From contig KV908656.1 of the NCBI GenBank assembly GCA_002005505.1, positions 43,075 through 107,074 on the forward strand: 64,000 nt of DNA. The letters are read 5' to 3'. This document shows, piece after piece, positions 3,840 to 63,656 of this stretch. The translations under genes and the position numbers were made by a program. Numbering within the stretch: the first letter of the stretch is position 1; every line of letters begins with the position of its first letter. This stretch comes from Botryococcus braunii. Lineage: Eukaryota; Chlorophyta; Trebouxiophyceae. The notes below the pieces were generated by a model, which was given only the letters and a program-made list of their open reading frames with translations, did no database searches and was not told where the DNA came from.

Positions 3840-4539
3840 TGTTGAGTTGTGAACATACATTATAGAATGCCTTGTGCTTTAGGTGATCTTCAAATTTACA
3901 TTATTAGGATACGGGTCCACTATCCACATAAGGTACCTCAAGACACGTTCGGATGAGGTCTATTTCGAACATAAGGTACAATCTGATTTAGATTACGCGT
4001 TAGTGTGAAAGGACTATTAAAGCTGCGATCACCGCATAGTCGAGCAACTGGTTTGGAAAGATACTGGGCACATAAGGATGCCAGTCTTGTTCATGCAGTT
4101 GCATGTGTCTAAAGAGCACACAGTCGTCAAGGACGGTAGCTGGAGTGGCACGAACTTACGACCTGTCTGCTTGCTTACAGGTGCGGTGACGCAGGGTGTG
4201 TATTGGTAATGTGTTCATGTTTGATTGCTTGTTTGTAAGTGAACCATCTTAGTGGACAATCAAGTCTCCCAAACAGCTAAGGGACGGAGTCTTGATTGAG
4301 TATAGGAAGGTACTTGCTTTCAGCCGTCAGGAGCTTATCCGTGTGTAGATGCTCATTGACAGATCAACATGTAACGGAACTGGTTTGGAAAGATACTGGG
4401 CACATAAGGATGCCAGTCTTGTTCATGCAGTTGCATGTGTCTAAAGAGCACACAGTCGTCAAGGACGGTAGCTGGAGTGGCACGAACTTACGACCTGTCT
4501 GCTTGCTTACAGGTGATGCCGAATGCCCATAACCTAACA
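3840..4539 (+). repeat. Element E 5' LTR (long form, U3-R-X-R-U5)
   Basis: 700 bp, TGTTG...AACA. The segments are U3 3840-4045; first repeat 4046-4180, ending TTGCTTACAG; spacer X 4181-4377, starting GTGCGG; second repeat 4378-4512, identical to the first over 135 bp; and U5 4513-4539. U3 carries two ATAAGGTAC sites, at about 3929 and 3970. Confidence 0.9.
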
Positions 4540-4553
4540 GGTTATGGGCCCAC
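4540..4553 (+). promoter_or_regulatory. Element E primer-binding site (inner tRNA-iMet)
   Basis: GGTTATGGGCCCAC directly follows the LTR. It is complementary to the anticodon-arm region of initiator tRNA-Met (…GGGCCCAUAACC…), not to a tRNA 3' CCA end. This type of site is known from Drosophila copia, where a half-tRNA primes. The LTR's last bases, GCCCATAACC, can pair with it to form a 10-bp hairpin with a TAACA loop. Confidence 0.8.
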
Positions 4554-8109: not shown

Positions 8110-8806
8110 TGTTGAGTTGTGAACATACATTATAGACCTTGTGCTTTAGGTGATCTTCAAATTTACATTATTAGGATACGGGTCCACTATCCAAATAAGG
8201 TACCTCAAGACACGTTCGGATGAGGTCTATTTCGAACATAAGGTACAATCTGATTTAGATTACGCGTTAGTGTGAAAGGACTATTAAAGCTGCGATCACC
8301 GCATAGTCGAGCAACTGGTTTGGAAAGATACTGGGCACATAAGGATGCCAGTCTTGTTCATGCAGTTGCATGTGTCTAAAGAGCACACAGTCGTCAAGGA
8401 CGGTAGCTGGAGTGGCACGAACTTACGACCTGTCTGCTTGCTTACAGGTGCGGTGACGCAGGGTGTGTATTGGTAATGTGTTCATGTTTGATTGCTTGTT
8501 TGTAAGTGAACCATCTTAGTGGACAATCAAGTCTCCCAAACAGCTAAGGGACGGAGTCTTGATTGAGTATAGGAAGGTACTTGCTTTCAGCCGTCAGGAG
8601 CTTATCCGTGTGTAGATGCTCATTGACAGATCAACATGTAACGGAACTGGTTTGGAAAGATACTGGGCACATAAGGATGCCAGTCTTGTTCATGCAGTTG
8701 CATGTGTCTAAAGAGCACACAGTCGTCAAGGACGGTAGCTGGAGTGGCACGAACTTACGACCTGTCTGCTTGCTTACAGGTGATGCCGAATGCCCATAAC
8801 CTAACA
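8110..8806 (+). repeat. Element E 3' LTR (long form)
   Basis: 697 bp with U3 8110-8312, repeats at 8313-8447 and 8645-8779, spacer 8448-8644 and U5 8780-8806. In this element both LTRs keep the duplicated segment, unlike A and B. Confidence 0.9.
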
Positions 8807-23974: not shown

Positions 23975-23988
23975 GGTTATGGGCCCAC
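23975..23988 (+). promoter_or_regulatory. Element B primer-binding site (inner tRNA-iMet)
   Basis: GGTTATGGGCCCAC with no spacing from the LTR end. Same site as in A and E, although the U5 end here (GAAGTTTACA) does not pair with it. Confidence 0.8.
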
Positions 23989-24040: not shown

Positions 24041-24559
24041 ATGGCGCGAAAGAGACCAACCGGACGTATGAGCACGGGCGGAAGTAGACCTCCTCCACCT
24101 CCACCCCCTCCTCCAACATATAACGAGCGAAGAAAGGCAGGAGGAGAGAAAGGACCACGGACGATAGAATAACGAGCATTCCTGGTGAAGGACTTCGTCC
24201 ACGAAGCTCACGGACGGGGAGCACTCACGCCCCCTCGGTGGTTCCCAGAGCGTTTTCCGATATATCCAGCTTATAAATTCACTTTTTGGGAAATCTCATT
24301 CATCAACGGAGAGCCAGGATATCTGACACGAGCAATTTTTGAGAGGTGCTTACAGCAAACGGGAGGTCCATCGCACGAAGCTTACTGGACAGAGAAAGCC
24401 GCCTACGCAGCGATTGAGCTAGCTTTGAGCAGCCTGGGAGACGACTTCATTGATCGTCTAATTCTCTACAGCGAGGGCGAATTTCACGTGGACGAGTGGG
24501 TAACAAAGGACGACAGTGAGGACGGAGACTCCAGACTGTCAGAAAGGAGCGACGACTGA
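24041..24559 (+). pseudogene. Element B leader ORF0, H3-tail-like N-terminus, with one in-frame stop
   Basis: ATG at 24041 opens a 43-codon frame ending at TAA 24170-24172; the same frame then stays open to 24559. The first residues, MARKRPTGRMSTGGSRP, align without gaps to histone H3 residues 1-16 with A1, R2, T6, R8, S10, T11, G12, G13 and P16 identical. A run of eight prolines follows, then TYNE. After the stop, RAFLVKDF matches RAFIVKDY in the leader ORF of C, so the stop probably interrupts one longer protein of about 172 residues. That protein has an acidic Asp/Glu/Ser tail and ends 15 bp before gag. The function is unknown. Confidence 0.5.
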
Positions 24560-32220: not shown

Positions 32221-32232
32221 GGGCCCATAACC
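32221..32232 (-). promoter_or_regulatory. Element A primer-binding site (inner tRNA-iMet)
   Basis: Minus strand GGTTATGGGCCC directly follows the LTR end. The U5 end CCCATAACC is its inverted complement across a short loop. Confidence 0.8.
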
Positions 32233-32935
32233 TGTAAAAGGTTATGGGCAGTGGCGTATCCTGTAAGCAAGCAGACAGGTCGTAAGTTCGTGCCTCTCCA
32301 GCTACAGTCCTTGACGACTGTCTGCTCTTTTAGACACATGCAACTGCATGAACAAGACTGGCATCCTTATGTGCCCAGTATCTTTCCAAACCAGTTCCGT
32401 TACATGTTGATCTGTCAATGAGCATCTACACACGGATAAGCTCCTGACGGCTGAAAGCAAGTACCTTCCTATACTCAATCAAGACTCCGTCCCTTAGCTG
32501 TTTGGGAGACTTGATTGTCCACTAAGATGGTTCACTTACAAACAAGCAATCAAACATGAACACATTACCAATACACATCCTGCGTCACCGCACCTGTAAG
32601 CAAGCAGACAGGTCGTAAGTTCGTGCCTCTCCAGCTACAGTCCTTGACGACTGTCTGCTCTTTTAGACACATGCAACTGCATGAACAAGACTGGCATCCT
32701 TATGTGCCCAGTATCTTTCCAAACCAGTTGCTCGACTATGCGGTGATCGCAGCTTTAATAGTCCTTTCACGCTAACGCGTAATCTAAATCAGATTGTACC
32801 TTATGTTCGAAATAGACCTCATCCGAACGTGTCTTGAGGTACCTTATGTGGATAGTGGACCCGTATCCTAATAATGTACATTTGAAGATCACCTAAAGCA
32901 CAAGGCATTCTATAATGTATGTTCACAACTCAACA
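32233..32935 (-). repeat. Element A 5' LTR (long form)
   Basis: 703 bp: U3 32730-32935, repeat copy 1 32594-32729 (followed by GTGCGG), spacer 32397-32593, repeat copy 2 32261-32396 (followed by GATACG), U5 32233-32260. The two 136-bp repeats appear identical. Confidence 0.92.

Positions 32936-42877: not shown

Positions 42878-42937
<60 letters not shown>
42878..42937 (+). repeat. Poly(A) tract in gypsy 3' region
   Basis: 60 consecutive A between GAGTC and CTTGACC. Confidence 0.95.
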
Positions 42938-56295: not shown

Positions 56296-56424
56296 AAACC
56301 CCCTGGTACAATAATAGGTCATTTCACGAGAGTGTCACGTGGGTTTCCTGATAGGCCCCAAATGACCCAGGGGTGGCGTCCCCCACTCATGTGGGGAAGG
56401 GGTACACAACAACTAGCACATGTG
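56296..56424 (+). repeat. Array unit 8, truncated by element C
   Basis: 129 bp remain before the LTR of C. The array may continue beyond C outside the window. Confidence 0.9.
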
Positions 56425-57115
56425 TGTTGTGTTAATTAATTTTATGCCTTTCCCTCAGAGGAGAAATAATGGCAAGTCTCCGGATGAGGACAATACCAAT
56501 TAGGAAGGAGAGGCAAAACTCTGAGTTCTGCCAGGCAATACATGCATTTGAACGAAGACTATCATAACGCAAGTTACAGACACGTTTGTAGAAAGGAGGC
56601 ATATGGGGCAAGCACGGAGAGGGAAGGCACTTGATTGGAACTATAGCAGCACTCCGGGTGTCTATCAATCAGTTGCCAACCAGTCCTTGACTTGTATATG
56701 TCCGTGCCTACTTAACAACGCACAAGTAGGAGGACATCGTCTAACACCCTCCGTGCCGCCACCATGCAGGTGACTTAACCCTTATTGTATTCCTGGATTT
56801 AGCACTCAGATGAACATTGTTAGAACAAGCTAGACATATGGAGTTGAGTTTAGCTCATCGGACAAAGTAACGAGCATGACCTGAGTGAGAGCAGGTTAGG
56901 CGTGTTTGAACTGCGTCACCTTATTAGGAGAGATGAGAGATATTGTAAGACTTGATTGGAACTATAGCAGCACTCCGGGTGTCTATCAATCAGTTGCCAA
57001 CCAGTCCTTGACTTGTATATGTCCGTGCCTACTTAACAACGCACAAGTAGGAGGACATCGTCTAACACCCTCCGTGCCGCCACCATGCAGGATACGCCAA
57101 GCCCAGAATATTTCA
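56425..57115 (+). repeat. Element C 5' LTR (long form)
   Basis: U3 56425-56628, repeat copy 1 56629-56769 (ending CATGCAG before GTGACT), spacer 56770-56949, repeat copy 2 56950-57090 (ending CATGCAG before GATACG), U5 57091-57115. The 141-bp copies appear identical and are distantly similar to those of B. Confidence 0.93.
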
Positions 57116-57128
57116 GGTTATGGCCCAC
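57116..57128 (+). promoter_or_regulatory. Element C primer-binding site
   Basis: GGTTATGGCCCAC, the same inner tRNA-iMet site as A and B with one G deleted from the GGG. Confidence 0.7.
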
Positions 57129-57182: not shown

Positions 57183-57380
57183 ATGGCGAAGAAGCGAACA
57201 AAGCAAACAGCCAGGAAGACTACCAACCTCAACGTCCCAGCGCGCTTGAGATCAGGACCTCCGTCATACAACGAACTAATCAGAGAAGGAGGACAACGTG
57301 GAGACCGCAATCCTGGCGAGAGAGCCTTTATCGTCAAAGACTACATTTTTCACCTTCACGTTGGCTGTCCGCTAGAGTAA
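57183..57380 (+). CDS. Element C leader ORF0, histone H3-tail mimic
   Basis: A 65-residue ORF from ATG 57183 to TAA, between the primer site and gag, with its own start and stop. The N-terminus is MAKKRTKQTARKTT; RTKQTARK equals residues 2-9 of the histone H3 tail (including K4 and K9), with two extra lysines after Met-Ala. Further on, PPSYNE and RAFIVKDY match PTYNE and RAFLVKDF of ORF0 in B, so this is a conserved element protein and not a stray host exon. B continues about 120 residues beyond this point, so C's version may be truncated. Possible roles are a decoy or guide for H3-modifying or H3-reading proteins; nothing in the sequence proves this. Confidence 0.6.
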   Translation: MAKKRTKQTARKTTNLNVPARLRSGPPSYNELIREGGQRGDRNPGERAFIVKDYIFHLHVGCPLE

Positions 57381-57431: not shown

Positions 57432-59620
57432 ATGACTTCCAAGAAGAAAGGATCATCAGCTAGTGGAGCATCAACGTCAAGCAGTGAACCAGCCTCATCC
57501 ACGCCCATCAGAGAACCATGTACTCCCAGCACCTCAAGAGGCAGCGGAGATGAGCTGCCCAAGATTATCCCAACAAATGTCAAGGTACACATAAAACTGA
57601 AGGAACGGGGGACAAATATTATTGTTTGGAAGAATGCATTTTTGGCAGCAAATGAGTCAAAAGGGTCTCTGCCTGCCATCCTGGAGGCTATGCCTGGTAC
57701 AGCACATGATGCAGCCGCAATGTTGCTGATTTATGAGTCAGTTCCAGAGGAATGGCTGGGACCTCTGTCTAATCTGCCCTCTGCCTATGATGCATATGAG
57801 TTCATCTGCAGAAAGTTTATTGGTGGATATAATATCCAGGCCAATGCAGACTGGCTCCAAGAAATGAACCAGGGAATGAAACATGACGAGACGATATCGC
57901 AGTATGTCAACAGAATGATCAACCTGAAGGCATGCCTTGACAGGAACAACCATGCTCTACTGGATGCACACGTTGCAACCCAGATTGTGCAGGGCTTGCC
58001 TGATGCAGCTAAAGAGCCAGGAATGATCACAACTGCTGCAGCACAACCCCTGGAGAAGCTGGCTGGACTTCTGCGCAACACAGCAGCGGCAGTGGGTTTT
58101 GATGAATATGCTCCTCGCCAACCAAGGGTTTTGGCTCTTGGACAAGGCTCCAGTGGAACCAATACCCCACCAGCTGCCAGTGCAGCCCATCAGCAGGCCC
58201 AACCAACTGTCTCTGAGGCCAAGTCCGAGACAAAGGGCATCTGCAACTACTGCAATAAGAAGGGGCATTACTGGAGGGACTGTCGAAAGAGGAAGCGGGA
58301 CGAGGAGACCCAACGGAACGTAGTGGCAGCGGTCCAACAACTGCAGGGAATGTGGCTACAGGGACCTCCACCTATGGGTGGCCCACACCCTCCTGCAGCC
58401 CAGCTGGCGCACCCTGGACTGGATGCCTTTCCTGCATGGTTTCAACCCCCAGCTCCCCCACCTCCACCACCTAGAGGTATGCCATACATAATTTCCCTCA
58501 ACATCCTGAAGACTCCTGTCAGAAATTCGTTTCTGCAATCCTGGCTGGTGGACAGTGGAGCATCTGTACATCTGGTGAATGATGTGACCTTGCTACATAA
58601 TCCAACTGTGCATGCCAAACCCATCCCATTACATCTGGCCACTTCAGATGCCACTGGAGGAATTGTAGCATCTGGCTCTGTCTGCATCCTCAGTCGAGTG
58701 GGAGTTCCCTTGTGGATACATCATGTTCAGTGTGTTCCTTCTGCAACCTCAAACATACTGTCAGTATCTGCAGCATTGCGGGATGGGGCAGTCTTTCGCA
58801 CAGATGATGTTGGAGCATTCACTGAAGTCTGTGGTCCAAACAGCTGGAGGTCTCGGATCAGTGCAGAGAAAGGGCTATTTTACATTCATCAAGTTGTAGC
58901 TCTGAGTCCCAGTGTTAACCACAGAATCATCTCGGCTGCTGTGAAGTCCAAAACCCCCACCCAAAACTCACACAACTGTGCCAGACGATACCTCTGGCAT
59001 AGCAGAATGGGACATCCAGGTGAAACATGGATGCAGCGCCTAACCAATGAGGACCTGGTCTCAGGACTTGATACATCCCTATGCCCCTGCTCCAATTGTC
59101 CAGTCTTCTGTGAAGCATGTATTGAGGGAAAGACGTCTCGGCCTCCATTTGGAGTAAGTAGTAGACCAGCTGTTGAACCACTTGACAGAGTACATATTGA
59201 CACTGTGGGCCCCATTTTTCCTGCTGCAGTAACTGGTGAACGTTACTGGGTGACTGCTTTGGATGAGTCATCTCAGTTAAAGGCAGTCCTGCCTGTGAAG
59301 TCCAAAGATGCCATCAGTGCTGCTGTGCGGGACCTCCTTCTATATTGGCAGACCCAGAAGAAAACCAAAGTGAAGTGTGTCCGATGTGACCGTGGAACTG
59401 AATTTCTGAATGCCACGTTCAAAGAATTTTGTGCATCCCAGGGGACTAAATTGGAGACCTCAGCTCCTTACACCCCGCAACAGAATGGAGCAGCTGAAAG
59501 AGCCAATCGCACCCTCAAGGAACGTACCAGGACTCTTCTGGCTTTTGCAGCTGCCAGTCCAACGTTGTGGAAGGAGGCCCTGGAAACTGCCTGCACCCTA
59601 CTGAACATGGGTCCCAGTAC
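57432..59620 (+). pseudogene. Element C: gag, zinc knuckle, protease, integrase core
   Basis: One open frame of about 730 residues from ATG 57432. Domains are gag (NVKVHIKLKERGTNIIVWKNA, PSAYDAYEFICRKFIGGYN), CCHC knuckle CNYCNKKGHYWRDC (about 58243-58284), protease WLVDSGASVHLVND (about 58543-58584), integrase zinc region (WHSRMGHPG...CSNCPVFCEAC) and core with D in HIDTVGPIFP, D in VRCDRGTEF and E in QQNGAAERANRT. The frame is lost at about 59620, in the GPSTG region, through a small deletion. Confidence 0.93.
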
Positions 59621-60240
59621 CGGAGGGACCGCACGCCATCAGAATTATTTTTTGGCTACAAACCAAATGTAACCCCATTGCGTACCTGGGGTTGCTTGGC
59701 CTTTGTGCACATCCCTGATGTCCAGCGCTCTGTGTTTTCCCCCAAAACTGTGCCAGGGATGCTTACTGGTTACTCAGCCTCCTCCAAAGCCTATCGGATA
59801 TATGTGGGAGGGGGTATCTGGAAGGAGAGCAGAGATGTGGTTTTCGTAGAGCACCTCAGGGGAGCCTCTCGGGTTGGCATGAGTGCTTCCCCAACACAGC
59901 CTACAGAGTTCCTGTGTCCTGAGTCCTCTGCAAGTGACACTCCCCCAGTCTTTCCCGGTACCTCCCCTGACACAACCAACATCAGCCTTGAGACAGATCT
60001 GGATGACCCACACAGTGAGCCTGAGTACCTGCCAGCCTCCAGCAACCTCCCCACACAGCCTGTCACAGGACCCCCCAGGGAGGCTGAGCCCGAGTCTAAA
60101 TCCAGAAGACTGTGTGACCCAGTGGAGATGGATCAAACCCTGGAGGCAGTACAGGACTTAGCCAGAGGAGTGAGAGGGACTCCCACCTTCGACCACAGAT
60201 GGAGCGAGCCCAGGAGGTCTTCAGACCAACTAGGTCTGAA
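59621..60240 (+). pseudogene. Element C: integrase C-terminal region
   Basis: ELFFGYKPNVTPLRTWGCLAF, SKAYRIYVGGGIWKESRDVVF and VEHLRGASRVG complete the integrase. A Ser/Pro/Thr-rich linker follows. The frame shifts near 60235. Confidence 0.85.
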
Positions 60241-61264: not shown

Positions 61265-62130
61265 TTGAGAGAAGCACAGATGTCTCCCCAGTGGGAATAC
61301 TGGAAGGCAGCTATGCAGGAAGAGCAAAATTCCCTAGATACTCATGAGGTCATGGAGTATGTGCCAAGACCTCGTGGACATAAGGTTATTCCAGTTCACT
61401 GGATATTTTCAGTGAAAATGGATGCACATGGCAATGTGGTGAGATTCAAGGCCAGATTAGTGGCACAGGGATGCAGACAAATCCCTGGAGTGGATGTGAT
61501 GGAGGTTTTTGCTCCTACTAGTAGCTATGGAGCTAGAAGAGCTCTGCTGGCCGTTGCTGCAAGAGAGGGCTGTGAAATTCATCAGGTAGACGTTAAGACC
61601 GCCTTTCTGAATGGTGAGCTCGAGGAGGAAGTATATGTAACGCAACCTCCTGGCTTTGAGAATGGGGATAAGCATATTGTGTGCCGATTGAGAAAGGCGT
61701 TGTATGGCCTGAAGCAGGCTCCACGTGCCTGGCACAAAACCCTGAATGACAAACTTGAAGTCATGGGGTATGAGGTGTGCAAGAGTGATGCGGGAGTGTA
61801 TGTGAGATGCTCTACTGATGGAGGAAAGTCCTATGTGCTGATCTATGTTGATGATCTTCTGATAGTTTCCAAGGGTATGTCAGAAATCGAGAGAGTGAAG
61901 GGACTCCTCAAGAAAGAGTTCACCATCCATGATCTTGGAGAAGTAAAGGATTTCTTGGGATGTCAAGTGATGAGAGATAGAGATAAAGGGCTGATCACCC
62001 TGAGTTGCATCCCTAAAATCGATGCACTTGTAGAGAAATTTGGCTTGGATCTTGAGTCAGTGGGACCTGATACTCCCATGACAAAAGATTTCGTAATGTC
62101 CCAAAGGCCTGCACCAGAGATGGGAGCGAC
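61265..62130 (+). pseudogene. Element C: reverse transcriptase
   Basis: REAQMSPQWEYWKAAMQEEQ starts the RT. It contains VIPVHWIFSVKMDAHG, FKARLVAQGCRQ, DVKTAFLNGELEEEVYVTQP, LYGLKQAPRAW, catalytic YVDDLLIV (about 61846-61869) and IHDLGEVKDFLGCQVM. No damage in the palm. The frame breaks near 62122. Confidence 0.93.
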
Positions 62131-62828
62131 AGCATTGGTGCTGGCAGTCCACTACCTCCAGGTCACCGTTACTGTGAGTTAGTAGGGTCTCTTCTGTATA
62201 TAGCCAACACCACACGTCCCGACATAGCTCAAGCAGTAGGTGTATTGTCTCGTTACCGCATATCTCCCACCACAGCACATTGGAATGAAGCCATCCGTGT
62301 GTTGAAGTATCTGAAAGGAACCCGAGATTTGGTTCTAACTCTCGGAGGGGGGAGATAGAGCTAGAAGGCTATGTGGATGCCGACTATGGAGGTGATCAGG
62401 ATCATCGCTTCTCTACCACTGGCTTTGTCCTCACTGTGTTTGGAGGAGCAGTGGTGTGGGGAAGTAAAAAGCAATCTGCTGTTGCCACTTCAACAGTGGA
62501 GGCTGAATTCATGGCAGCAAGTGCTGTTGTAAAGGAAGCAAATTGGCTGAGAGGTTTCCTGGAGGAAATTGGAGTGTTACCGTGGATAGTGAAGATTCAT
62601 TGTGACAACCAAGGGTGTATAAACCACCTGAGGAATCCGGTGTACTCCAAACACACAAAGCATATTGCAATTAGCTGTCACTTTGCCCGTGAAGCTATTG
62701 CAAAGGGGCAGGTTGAATTCAAGTACATTCAATCTGCTAGAAATGTGGCTGACATTTTTACCAAACCACTAGTTAGACAAGTGTTTCTGGGACATCGTAA
62801 CTCACTGGGACTGGCCAAGTTTCTGTGA
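62131..62828 (+). pseudogene. Element C: RT end and RNase H
   Basis: From LPPGHRYCELVGSLLYIANT (about 62150 onward), with a further break at the G-run near 62347-62353, then intact RNase H blocks (VDADYGGDQDHRFSTTG, VVWGSKKQSAVATSTVEAEF, HCDNQGC, HTKHIAISCHFAREA, ADIFTKPL) and a natural stop at 62826-62828. Confidence 0.9.
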
Positions 62829-62835
62829 GGTAAAG

Positions 62836-62844
62836 CAAGGGAAG
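62836..62844 (+). promoter_or_regulatory. Element C polypurine tract
   Basis: CAAGGGAAG before the 3' LTR. Confidence 0.65.
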
Positions 62845-62933
62845 TGTTGTGTTAATTAATTTTATGCCTTTCCCTCAGAGGAGAAATAATGGCAAGTCTC
62901 CGGATGAGGACAATACCAATTAAGGAAGGAGAG

Positions 62934-62935: not shown

Positions 62936-63001
<66 letters not shown>

Positions 63002-63028: not shown

Positions 63029-63645
63029 GCCTTGTCTTTGTGATCTTCATGTGTGCACTATTAATATGGTCCATTGAGCATAGTACTTGGACCGCAGATC
63101 GACGTCGACATAATACAATCTCTAGACACGTTTGTCGATGAACTCACGCCCCCGAGATACAACTGGTTGAAAGATGCTGGCATCACCAGATGCTAGTCTG
63201 TCCGACAGTTGTGTGTGGCACTCAGCAGACAGTCGTACGGGACTGTACTGGAGTAACTTCGTCTATTGACGACCTGTCTGCTTTGTACAGGTACGGTGCG
63301 GCAGTGTGTGTTGTATCATTGTTGCTATTGTGAGAGTGAACAAGCTTAGTGTACCCTGTAGTCACTCAAACAGATAAGGGACAGTGACTTCAGGGAGTAT
63401 AGGCATGTACTTGAACGTAGCCGTCTAGAGCCTTATCTAGTGATTGCTTGATCGGTGCTTGTGTACAAGATAATGAGTAACGGAACGGTTGTGAAAGATG
63501 CTGGGCATCACCAGATGCTAGTCTTGTCCGACAGTTGTGTGTGGCACTCAGCAGACAGTCGTACGGACTGTAGCTGGAGTAACTTCGTCTATTGACGACC
63601 TGTCTGCTTTGTACAGGGAAAGCCGATTGCCCATAACCTTTCACA
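63001..63645 (+). repeat. Element D 5' LTR (long form, left end lost)
   Basis: Diverged relative of the family A LTR (GCCTTGTC...GTGATCTTCA matches U3 of A). Repeat copy 1 63161-63290, ending TTGTACAG before GTACGG; spacer 63291-63483; repeat copy 2 63484-63616, ending TTGTACAG before GGAAAG; U5 63617-63645. The spacer is recognisably homologous to that of A. The first roughly 20 bases of the LTR are missing or obscured. Confidence 0.85.
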
Positions 63646-63656
63646 GGTTATGGGCC
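63646..63656 (+). promoter_or_regulatory. Element D primer-binding site
   Basis: GGTTATGGGCC directly after the LTR. U5 end GCCCATAACC is its perfect inverted complement, giving a 10-bp hairpin. Confidence 0.75.

Follow-up and report, generated by a model that had tools for sequence, protein, structure and literature searches.

Short motifs that resemble the tail of histone H3 occur in non-histone proteins outside transposons, as in the tail of influenza NS1. The motifs of NS1 and G9a are shorter than the tail considered here. In G9a, again not a transposon case, the motif is an automethylation site that is bound by HP1 proteins when methylated (PMC9768651). Passages on H3K9 mimicry among EHMT partners describe no transposon case (PMC10611923). 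Histone mimicry is already known from viruses and host regulators, and inhibition by a lysine-to-methionine change is known from mutant histones and from EZHIP. EZHIP (CXorf67), a non-histone protein of placental mammals, has methionine in place of the target lysine in a tail-like peptide, and by means of this K27M-like peptide it inhibits PRC2, a histone methyltransferase (PMC12713659). Among the mutant histones, H3K9M dominantly blocks K9 methylation in fission yeast; the SET domains of Clr4 and G9a bind it more strongly than they bind H3, in a SAM-dependent manner, and it traps Clr4. The H3K9M peptide that was crystallised, ARTKQTARMSTGGKA, is bound by G9a (PMC5030085). Parasite proteins that counter silencing in plants are also known: geminivirus TrAP inhibits the H3K9 methyltransferase KYP (PMC4606454), and VANC of VANDAL transposons is a transposon-encoded anti-silencing protein (PMC5735166).

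Here we analyse a 64,000-nucleotide stretch of Botryococcus braunii DNA (the window), in which the leaders of retroelements B and C each contain an open reading frame, ORF0, that begins like histone H3. Copies of the two types are called clade B and clade C. EZHIP is the product of a host gene, targets PRC2 and has its K27M-like motif in the C-terminus, whereas ORF0 is borne by a retrotransposon, and the motif of clade B, known here from sequence, is K9M-like, N-terminal and in the register of H3. Residues R2, T3, K4, Q5, R8, M9, S10, T11, G12, G13 and K14 of the H3K9M peptide recur in the clade B copy L117, which differs from it by A1G, T6S, A7G and A15R and has no histone family match behind the tail. 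TrAP is reported to bind the catalytic domain of KYP, in an abstract that makes no mention of histone mimicry; VANC is sequence-specific and acts through loss of DNA methylation. A literature search, judged mainly by titles and abstracts and covering few subscription journals, found no report of a transposon-encoded H3-tail mimic.

The leader frame and its element

The features of the two elements that are used below are as follows.

56424..57115, + strand: 5' LTR of element C (56424-56502 is an exact repeat; the opposite border is deduced from the primer site)
57116..57128, + strand: primer binding site of element C, GGTTATGGCCCAC, the motif after the LTR
57183..57380, + strand: 65-aa ORF0 of element C, shortened by an internal deletion from 166 aa
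57195..57218, + strand: RTKQTARK codons, the same residues as H3 2-9
57432..59672, + strand: gag-to-integrase frame of element C (Pfam)
61280..62182, + strand: copia-type reverse transcriptase (RVT_2) of element C (Pfam, 227.7 bits)
62844..62922, + strand: matching start of the 3' LTR of element C, ending near a 64-base homopolymer run at 62936
23975..23988, + strand: primer binding site of element B, GGTTATGGGCCCAC
24041..24559, + strand: ORF0 of element B, with a TAA at 24170-24172 that breaks the frame
24044..24085, + strand: tail of element B resembling H3, ARKRPTGRMSTGGS; it aligns in register with H3 Ala1 and has Met where H3 has K9

Element C is a Ty1/copia-like LTR retrotransposon, as its LTRs, its primer site and the position of integrase upstream of reverse transcriptase indicate. 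Its terminal direct repeat is exact over 79 nt, the copies being 6,420 nt apart, and the primer site is presumably of the type that pairs with the internal half of initiator tRNA-Met. The domain order is gag-type, integrase and then, downstream, RVT_2. Both gag_pre-integrs (38.6 bits) and Pol_BBD exceed the Pfam cut-off, rve lies just under it (30.3 bits; cut-off 32.6), and Retrotran_gag_2 is also below. For RNase H, no Pfam match was found in 62511-62825, and the frame of this copy is broken. LTR elements are described as predominant among the class I elements of B. braunii race B (PMC11286282).

Several other observations concern the LTRs of the window. The 5' LTR of element C contains an exact 142-nt duplication (56629-56770 and 56950-57091), and by eye the LTR-like stretches near 4050-4500 and 8310-8780 appear internally duplicated too. 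The sites 4526-4548, 32224-32248 and 63630-63654 read CCCATAACC, 5 or 7 nt, and GGTTATGGG; they are apparently copia LTR/primer-site junctions, at which the LTR end seems to be an inverted copy of the element's own primer site. Homopolymer runs at 62936 (64 bases, near the end of the 3' LTR match of element C) and at 42878 (60 bases) are possibly assembly artefacts.

The original prediction placed a 65-codon frame between the primer site and gag, and its coordinates, frame and sequence are right: the frame begins MAKKRTKQTARKTT / MAKKRTKQTARKTTNLNVPARL, reads MAKKRTKQTARKTTNLNVPARLRSGPPSYNELIREGGQRGDRNPGERAFIVKDYIFHLHVGCPLE, and is in frame with the gag ATG at 57432. However, this 65-codon frame is a shortened form with an internal deletion. 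Full-length relatives of the element C type have about 166 aa (166 in L036, L041 and L042), and other copies of this type among those examined are shorter, with 90, 80 or 68 aa. Compared with L041, 303 nt are missing from the ORF0 of the window copy, and a TAG repeat lies at the junction; the gap in the 90- and 80-aa forms is slightly smaller and has the same 3' junction. Splicing was considered as the origin of the 65- and 90-aa forms and rejected, since the lost stretch does not begin with GT and short repeats lie at the junctions. The N-terminal half is kept in all ORF0 forms seen, but that half was the search query. The deletion forms (65, 80 and 90 aa; window 57366-57380, L038, L039) account for most of the 150 scored ORF0 matches. 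For element B, unbroken relatives of the interrupted ORF0 have 174 aa.

ORF0 is modelled as a disordered tail followed by a small helical core of no recognised fold and an acidic end. In AlphaFold2 (AF2) predictions from 16 natural sequences, the core is helical (mean pLDDT 79, pTM 0.73) and residues 1-15 are disordered; these residues and the acidic end have low confidence. Comparison of the model with solved and viral structures gave no convincing match, and a Pfam search with both ORF0s gave nothing over the cut-off, the one match with an E-value of 0.31 being to a proline run. In particular, no histone Pfam family was found in either ORF0 that would place a histone fold behind the tail, and the printed PDB alignment of the L117 N-terminus with H3 stops at residue 17.

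The junction between ORF0 and gag differs among copies. In clade B loci (L052 and others), ORF0 ends in a single TGA, with the gag ATG six codons beyond it in frame; read-through could join ORF0 to gag in this clade. Two in-frame stops separate ORF0 from gag in L002, L036, L041 and L042, which belong to clade C.

Likeness to the H3 tail, abundance and selection

The host's own H3 starts MARTKQTARKSTGG, and comparison with it confirms the predicted identity of RTKQTARK to H3 residues 2-9. The octamer had been described as lying at the N-terminus. It is indeed near the start, but it is displaced by two residues (MAKK precedes RTKQ) and is therefore out of register with H3 Ala1. Clade C tails in general are shifted by two or three residues with respect to H3, and keep K4 and K9. 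For element B, only conservation of the remainder of the frame had been noted, but the H3-like tail itself is also present there: the ORF0 of element B starts at 24041 with MARKRPTGRMSTGG, H3-like and in register with Ala1, and clade B has Met in place of K9. The clade B start MARKR[PQ]TGRMSTGG aligns without gaps with that of the host H3. Divergent clade B copies are nearer to H3 (MARTRQSGRM.., MARTRKTGRMSTGY and MGRTRQSGRMSTGS); the best clade B tail is GRTKQSGRMSTGGK, against ARTKQTARKSTGGK in H3, and L117/L118 have MGRTKQSGRMSTGGKRPF, against MARTKQTARKSTGGKAPR in H3 (12 of 18 residues identical). An example of a clade B tail peptide is GRTKQSGRMSTGGKRP.

Residues of the tail were counted in 104 of 115 ORF0 entries; the other 11 had no ATG at the expected place, fewer than 60 aa, or runs of N. 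The omitted entries include element B of the window (present twice in the set, as L051; fewer than 60 aa) and L105, L114 and L115, which have no H3-like tail at the start, and the window copy of element C enters the counts twice, once as L020 and once from the window itself. Clade B contributes 45 copies with 17 distinct tails. Among these 17, residue 1 is always A, G or V, residue 4 is always basic (R4 in 16, K4 in one), and G7 and M9 are invariant; R2 and R8 are each found in 16, G12 in 15, T3 and T11 each in 13, T6 in 11 (S6 in five), and Q5 and S10 each in 10. The EZHIP-like sequence VRMR occurs in none of the 17 within the first 14 residues, where GRM is found in 16 and GQM in one. A small residue after the initiator Met permits its removal. 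Because residue 1 is small in clade B, the Met could be removed, and an H3-like free N-terminus would remain.

That such an octamer is unlikely by chance, as originally claimed, is borne out. We took the first Met of each stop-to-stop frame of at least 40 aa in the window, which gave 278 N-termini, and compared them with H3 1-17 at small offsets: 276 reach at most five matches, and the two ORF0s (B and C) match at 9 and 10 positions. Among 20,000 composition-keeping shuffles of each tail, 0 to 8 reach the H3 score for 10 Botryococcus tails, 12 for P0013 and 69 for P0012. By this test P0009 (1,973 of 20,000) and P0016 (18,205 of 20,000) are not H3-like. A phmmer search of 177,635 PDB sequences with the N-terminus of L117 gave 122 matches at E<=10, of which the best 60 are all H3; the best of them (E 0.026) aligns residues 1-17 with H3 1-17. 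With the C-type 32-aa N-terminus, H3 appeared only at E 2.2, after unrelated proteins, and with the whole 166-aa C-type ORF0 no H3 was found in the PDB at E<=10.

The genome searched comprises 176 Mb in 989 contigs, and near-identical proteins are named as those of B. braunii (Botrbrau1). The RTKQTARK codon pattern was found at 297 places and the reversed control at none; the pattern is loose, with Ser allowed for Arg, and at least three of the 100 places listed are host H3 exons (L085, L087, L088). The clade B pattern R-T-[basic]-x-x-[AG]-R-M was found at 227 places (reversed control, 2), two of the 100 listed appearing unrelated, and the start MARKR[PQ..]TGRM at 58 places (control, 0). When the genome was searched with the 65-aa ORF0, 740 candidates were obtained, and all of the 150 scored match. 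Two H3-like exons of the genome (G000:C256:171739-172303 and C224:266259-266432) are only 71-72% identical to H3 and are possibly centromeric H3 variants.

A search seeded with gag, and thus independent of ORF0, gave 2,214 candidates, of which 150 were scored. By eye, 41 of the first 51 gag matches have an ORF0 match at the expected place. For the 10 remaining and four others lower in the list, leaders were retrieved; 13 of the 14 exist, one of them consisting entirely of N. The other 12, all absent from the ORF0 lists, bear on whether further copies have the frame and the motif: 11 begin MAKKRTKQTAR, and 10 have the exact RTKQTARK. In L131 two residues are inserted, L130 and L142 have the tail with a frame break soon after, and L141 has LTR-like sequence instead and no ORF0. 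In the element C family, an unbroken frame of 1805 aa runs through many of the 150 gag copies listed, so that this family looks young; gag frames above 2,300 aa may stem from runs of N.

Selection was assessed by Nei-Gojobori counts on cluster representatives (12 of clade B and 8 of clade C among 21 clusters; L074 was left out). In clade C the tail has pS 0.73 and pN 0.11, giving pN/pS 0.15 (95% bootstrap range 0.04-0.31), compared with 0.18 for the linker and 0.27 for the core, which here comprises only 36 codons because of the short forms. In clade B the tail has pS 0.49, pN 0.19 and pN/pS 0.39 (0.24-0.70), the linker 0.58 and the core 0.24 (0.19-0.32). Both bootstrap ranges for the tail lie below 1, so that purifying selection acts on it in clade B and clade C alike. 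The tail is the most constrained part in clade C only, by point estimate and with overlapping ranges; in clade B it is not more constrained than the core. Among the eight clade C representatives, every codon of KQTARKTT varies at silent sites and the residues are unchanged, the exceptions being TAGK in L110 and KIT in L103.

Protein searches gave 16 relatives of ORF0: eight Botryococcus models, three from ENA (P0004, P0015, P0016) and five from JGI metagenome contigs (P0009, P0010, P0012, P0013, P0014). No relative was confirmed among IMG/VR contigs. Tails of the relatives outside the Botryococcus genome are less H3-like: P0012 and P0013 keep QTARR, with Arg at position 9, P0009 and P0010 have RTQTAQRR, and P0016 has no clear H3-like motif. 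A tree of 33 cores without tails (omitting P0004, P0014, P0015 and L045) places clade B on one side and clade C together with the JGI rows on the other, across a branch of 0.7 changes per site that has support 100/100; its root is unsure, P0016, on a very long branch, being used as root. Since the H3-like tail is found in two deep clades, it is either an old common tail or the result of repeated convergence. We are highly confident that the likeness of ORF0 to the H3 tail is real, widespread and selected.

Proposed action and its alternatives

Two outcomes had originally been named as refuting a mimic, absence of the frame or motif from other copies and evolution of ORF0 free of constraint, and neither was observed. 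At the level of sequence, the predicted reading as a histone-tail mimic holds. We propose that ORF0 is an extra frame of a large Ty1/copia lineage of Botryococcus, placed between primer site and gag, and that its product would carry a mimic of the N-terminal tail of H3 on a small helical domain whose end is acidic. The protein would be made and its initiator Met removed; the exposed tail would then compete with H3 for enzymes or readers of H3K9 methylation, and the element would thereby escape heterochromatic silencing. In clade B, with Met9 and a conserved Arg8, an H3K9 methyltransferase would be trapped by its SET domain, as happens with H3K9M; clade C, with K4 and K9, would offer a decoy open to methylation or a dock for readers. 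ORF0 is probably a mimic for some ligand of the H3 tail. That the tail acts by inhibiting or titrating H3K9 methylation is a narrower claim, to which we give somewhat less than an even chance.

The host genome gives 11 matches to the SET domain above the Pfam cut-off, spread over nine loci; the SET exon of L128 comes closest to SUVH6 (E 5e-11), with H3K4 enzymes scoring nearly as well. The search for the Pre-SET family gave no match in the host or in any of the 14 control genomes. H3K9me1 is a mark of repressive chromatin in Chlamydomonas, though anti-silencing mutants with less H3K9me1 on transgenes showed unchanged transposon mobility (PMC7722844), which speaks against the proposed action.

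The tail might be a true H3 mimic that is directed not at K9 methylation but at a PHD or chromodomain reader, a histone chaperone or an importin, and that serves nuclear entry or the placing of the element in chromatin. A basic residue at position 4, Q5 and R8 are found repeatedly in both clades, clade C keeps the methylatable K4 and K9, and the tail of H3 serves as a nuclear import signal in its own right (PMC5677370), all of which suits this reading; Met9, present in all 17 distinct clade B tails, is explained neither by import nor by K4 readers, and we regard the reading as a serious though less likely alternative. If Met9 were simply a second start codon, the 'K9M' of clade B would be meaningless. 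The JGI gene model P0002 does begin at Met9, and L119 and L120 lack ATG1 and keep Met9. On the other hand, in each of the 13 listed clade B copies ATG1 is preceded by a purine at -3 and followed by G at +4, a context that Met9 has in only one of them (L092), and the codons upstream of Met9 are conserved at the protein level, which makes a second start very improbable.

More ordinary origins of the likeness have also to be weighed. A basic N-terminus for nuclear localisation or RNA binding, resembling H3 by coincidence, would fit the MAKKR and MAKRRR starts of clade C, which look like a plain basic signal. Such a coincidence is hard to reconcile with the shuffles of the 10 Botryococcus tails, which almost never reach the H3 score while keeping composition, with the non-basic residues T3, Q5, T6, G7, M9, T11 and G12 that are common or invariant in clade B, and with the resemblance of both clades to the same stretch of H3 at the same place; we judge it improbable. 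The start-to-start register including the Met, and the extension of the likeness to K14 and P16 in L117, would be expected of a functionless relic of a captured host H3 gene start. However, silent changes exceed amino-acid changes in the tail, which has been retained across a deep split, and we attach least weight of all to this origin.

Mimicry of the H3 tail for some ligand is the reading that we carry forward, and within it the two clades have to be treated separately: clade C keeps K9, so that one inhibitor mechanism cannot cover both. By analogy with H3K9M, we infer that the ORF0 of clade B would be a K9M-type inhibitor of H3K9 methylation. Clade C, which retains K9, would more likely act as a decoy that becomes methylated or as a dock for readers. 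More tentatively, the two may be arms of one anti-heterochromatin strategy, a retrotransposon 'oncohistone' in which the K9M tail of clade B would trap an H3K9 methyltransferase and clade C would present an unaltered K9 tail; we offer this as a speculative scheme.

If this scheme is true, a transposable element with a selected N-terminal H3 tail that has Met at K9 would be a direct weapon against heterochromatin, and the anti-heterochromatin strategy would be present in hundreds of copies in one algal genome. The many natural tail variants may serve for mapping the specificity of algal H3K9 enzymes, and the resistance of retrotransposons to chromatin silencing in green algae would become testable.
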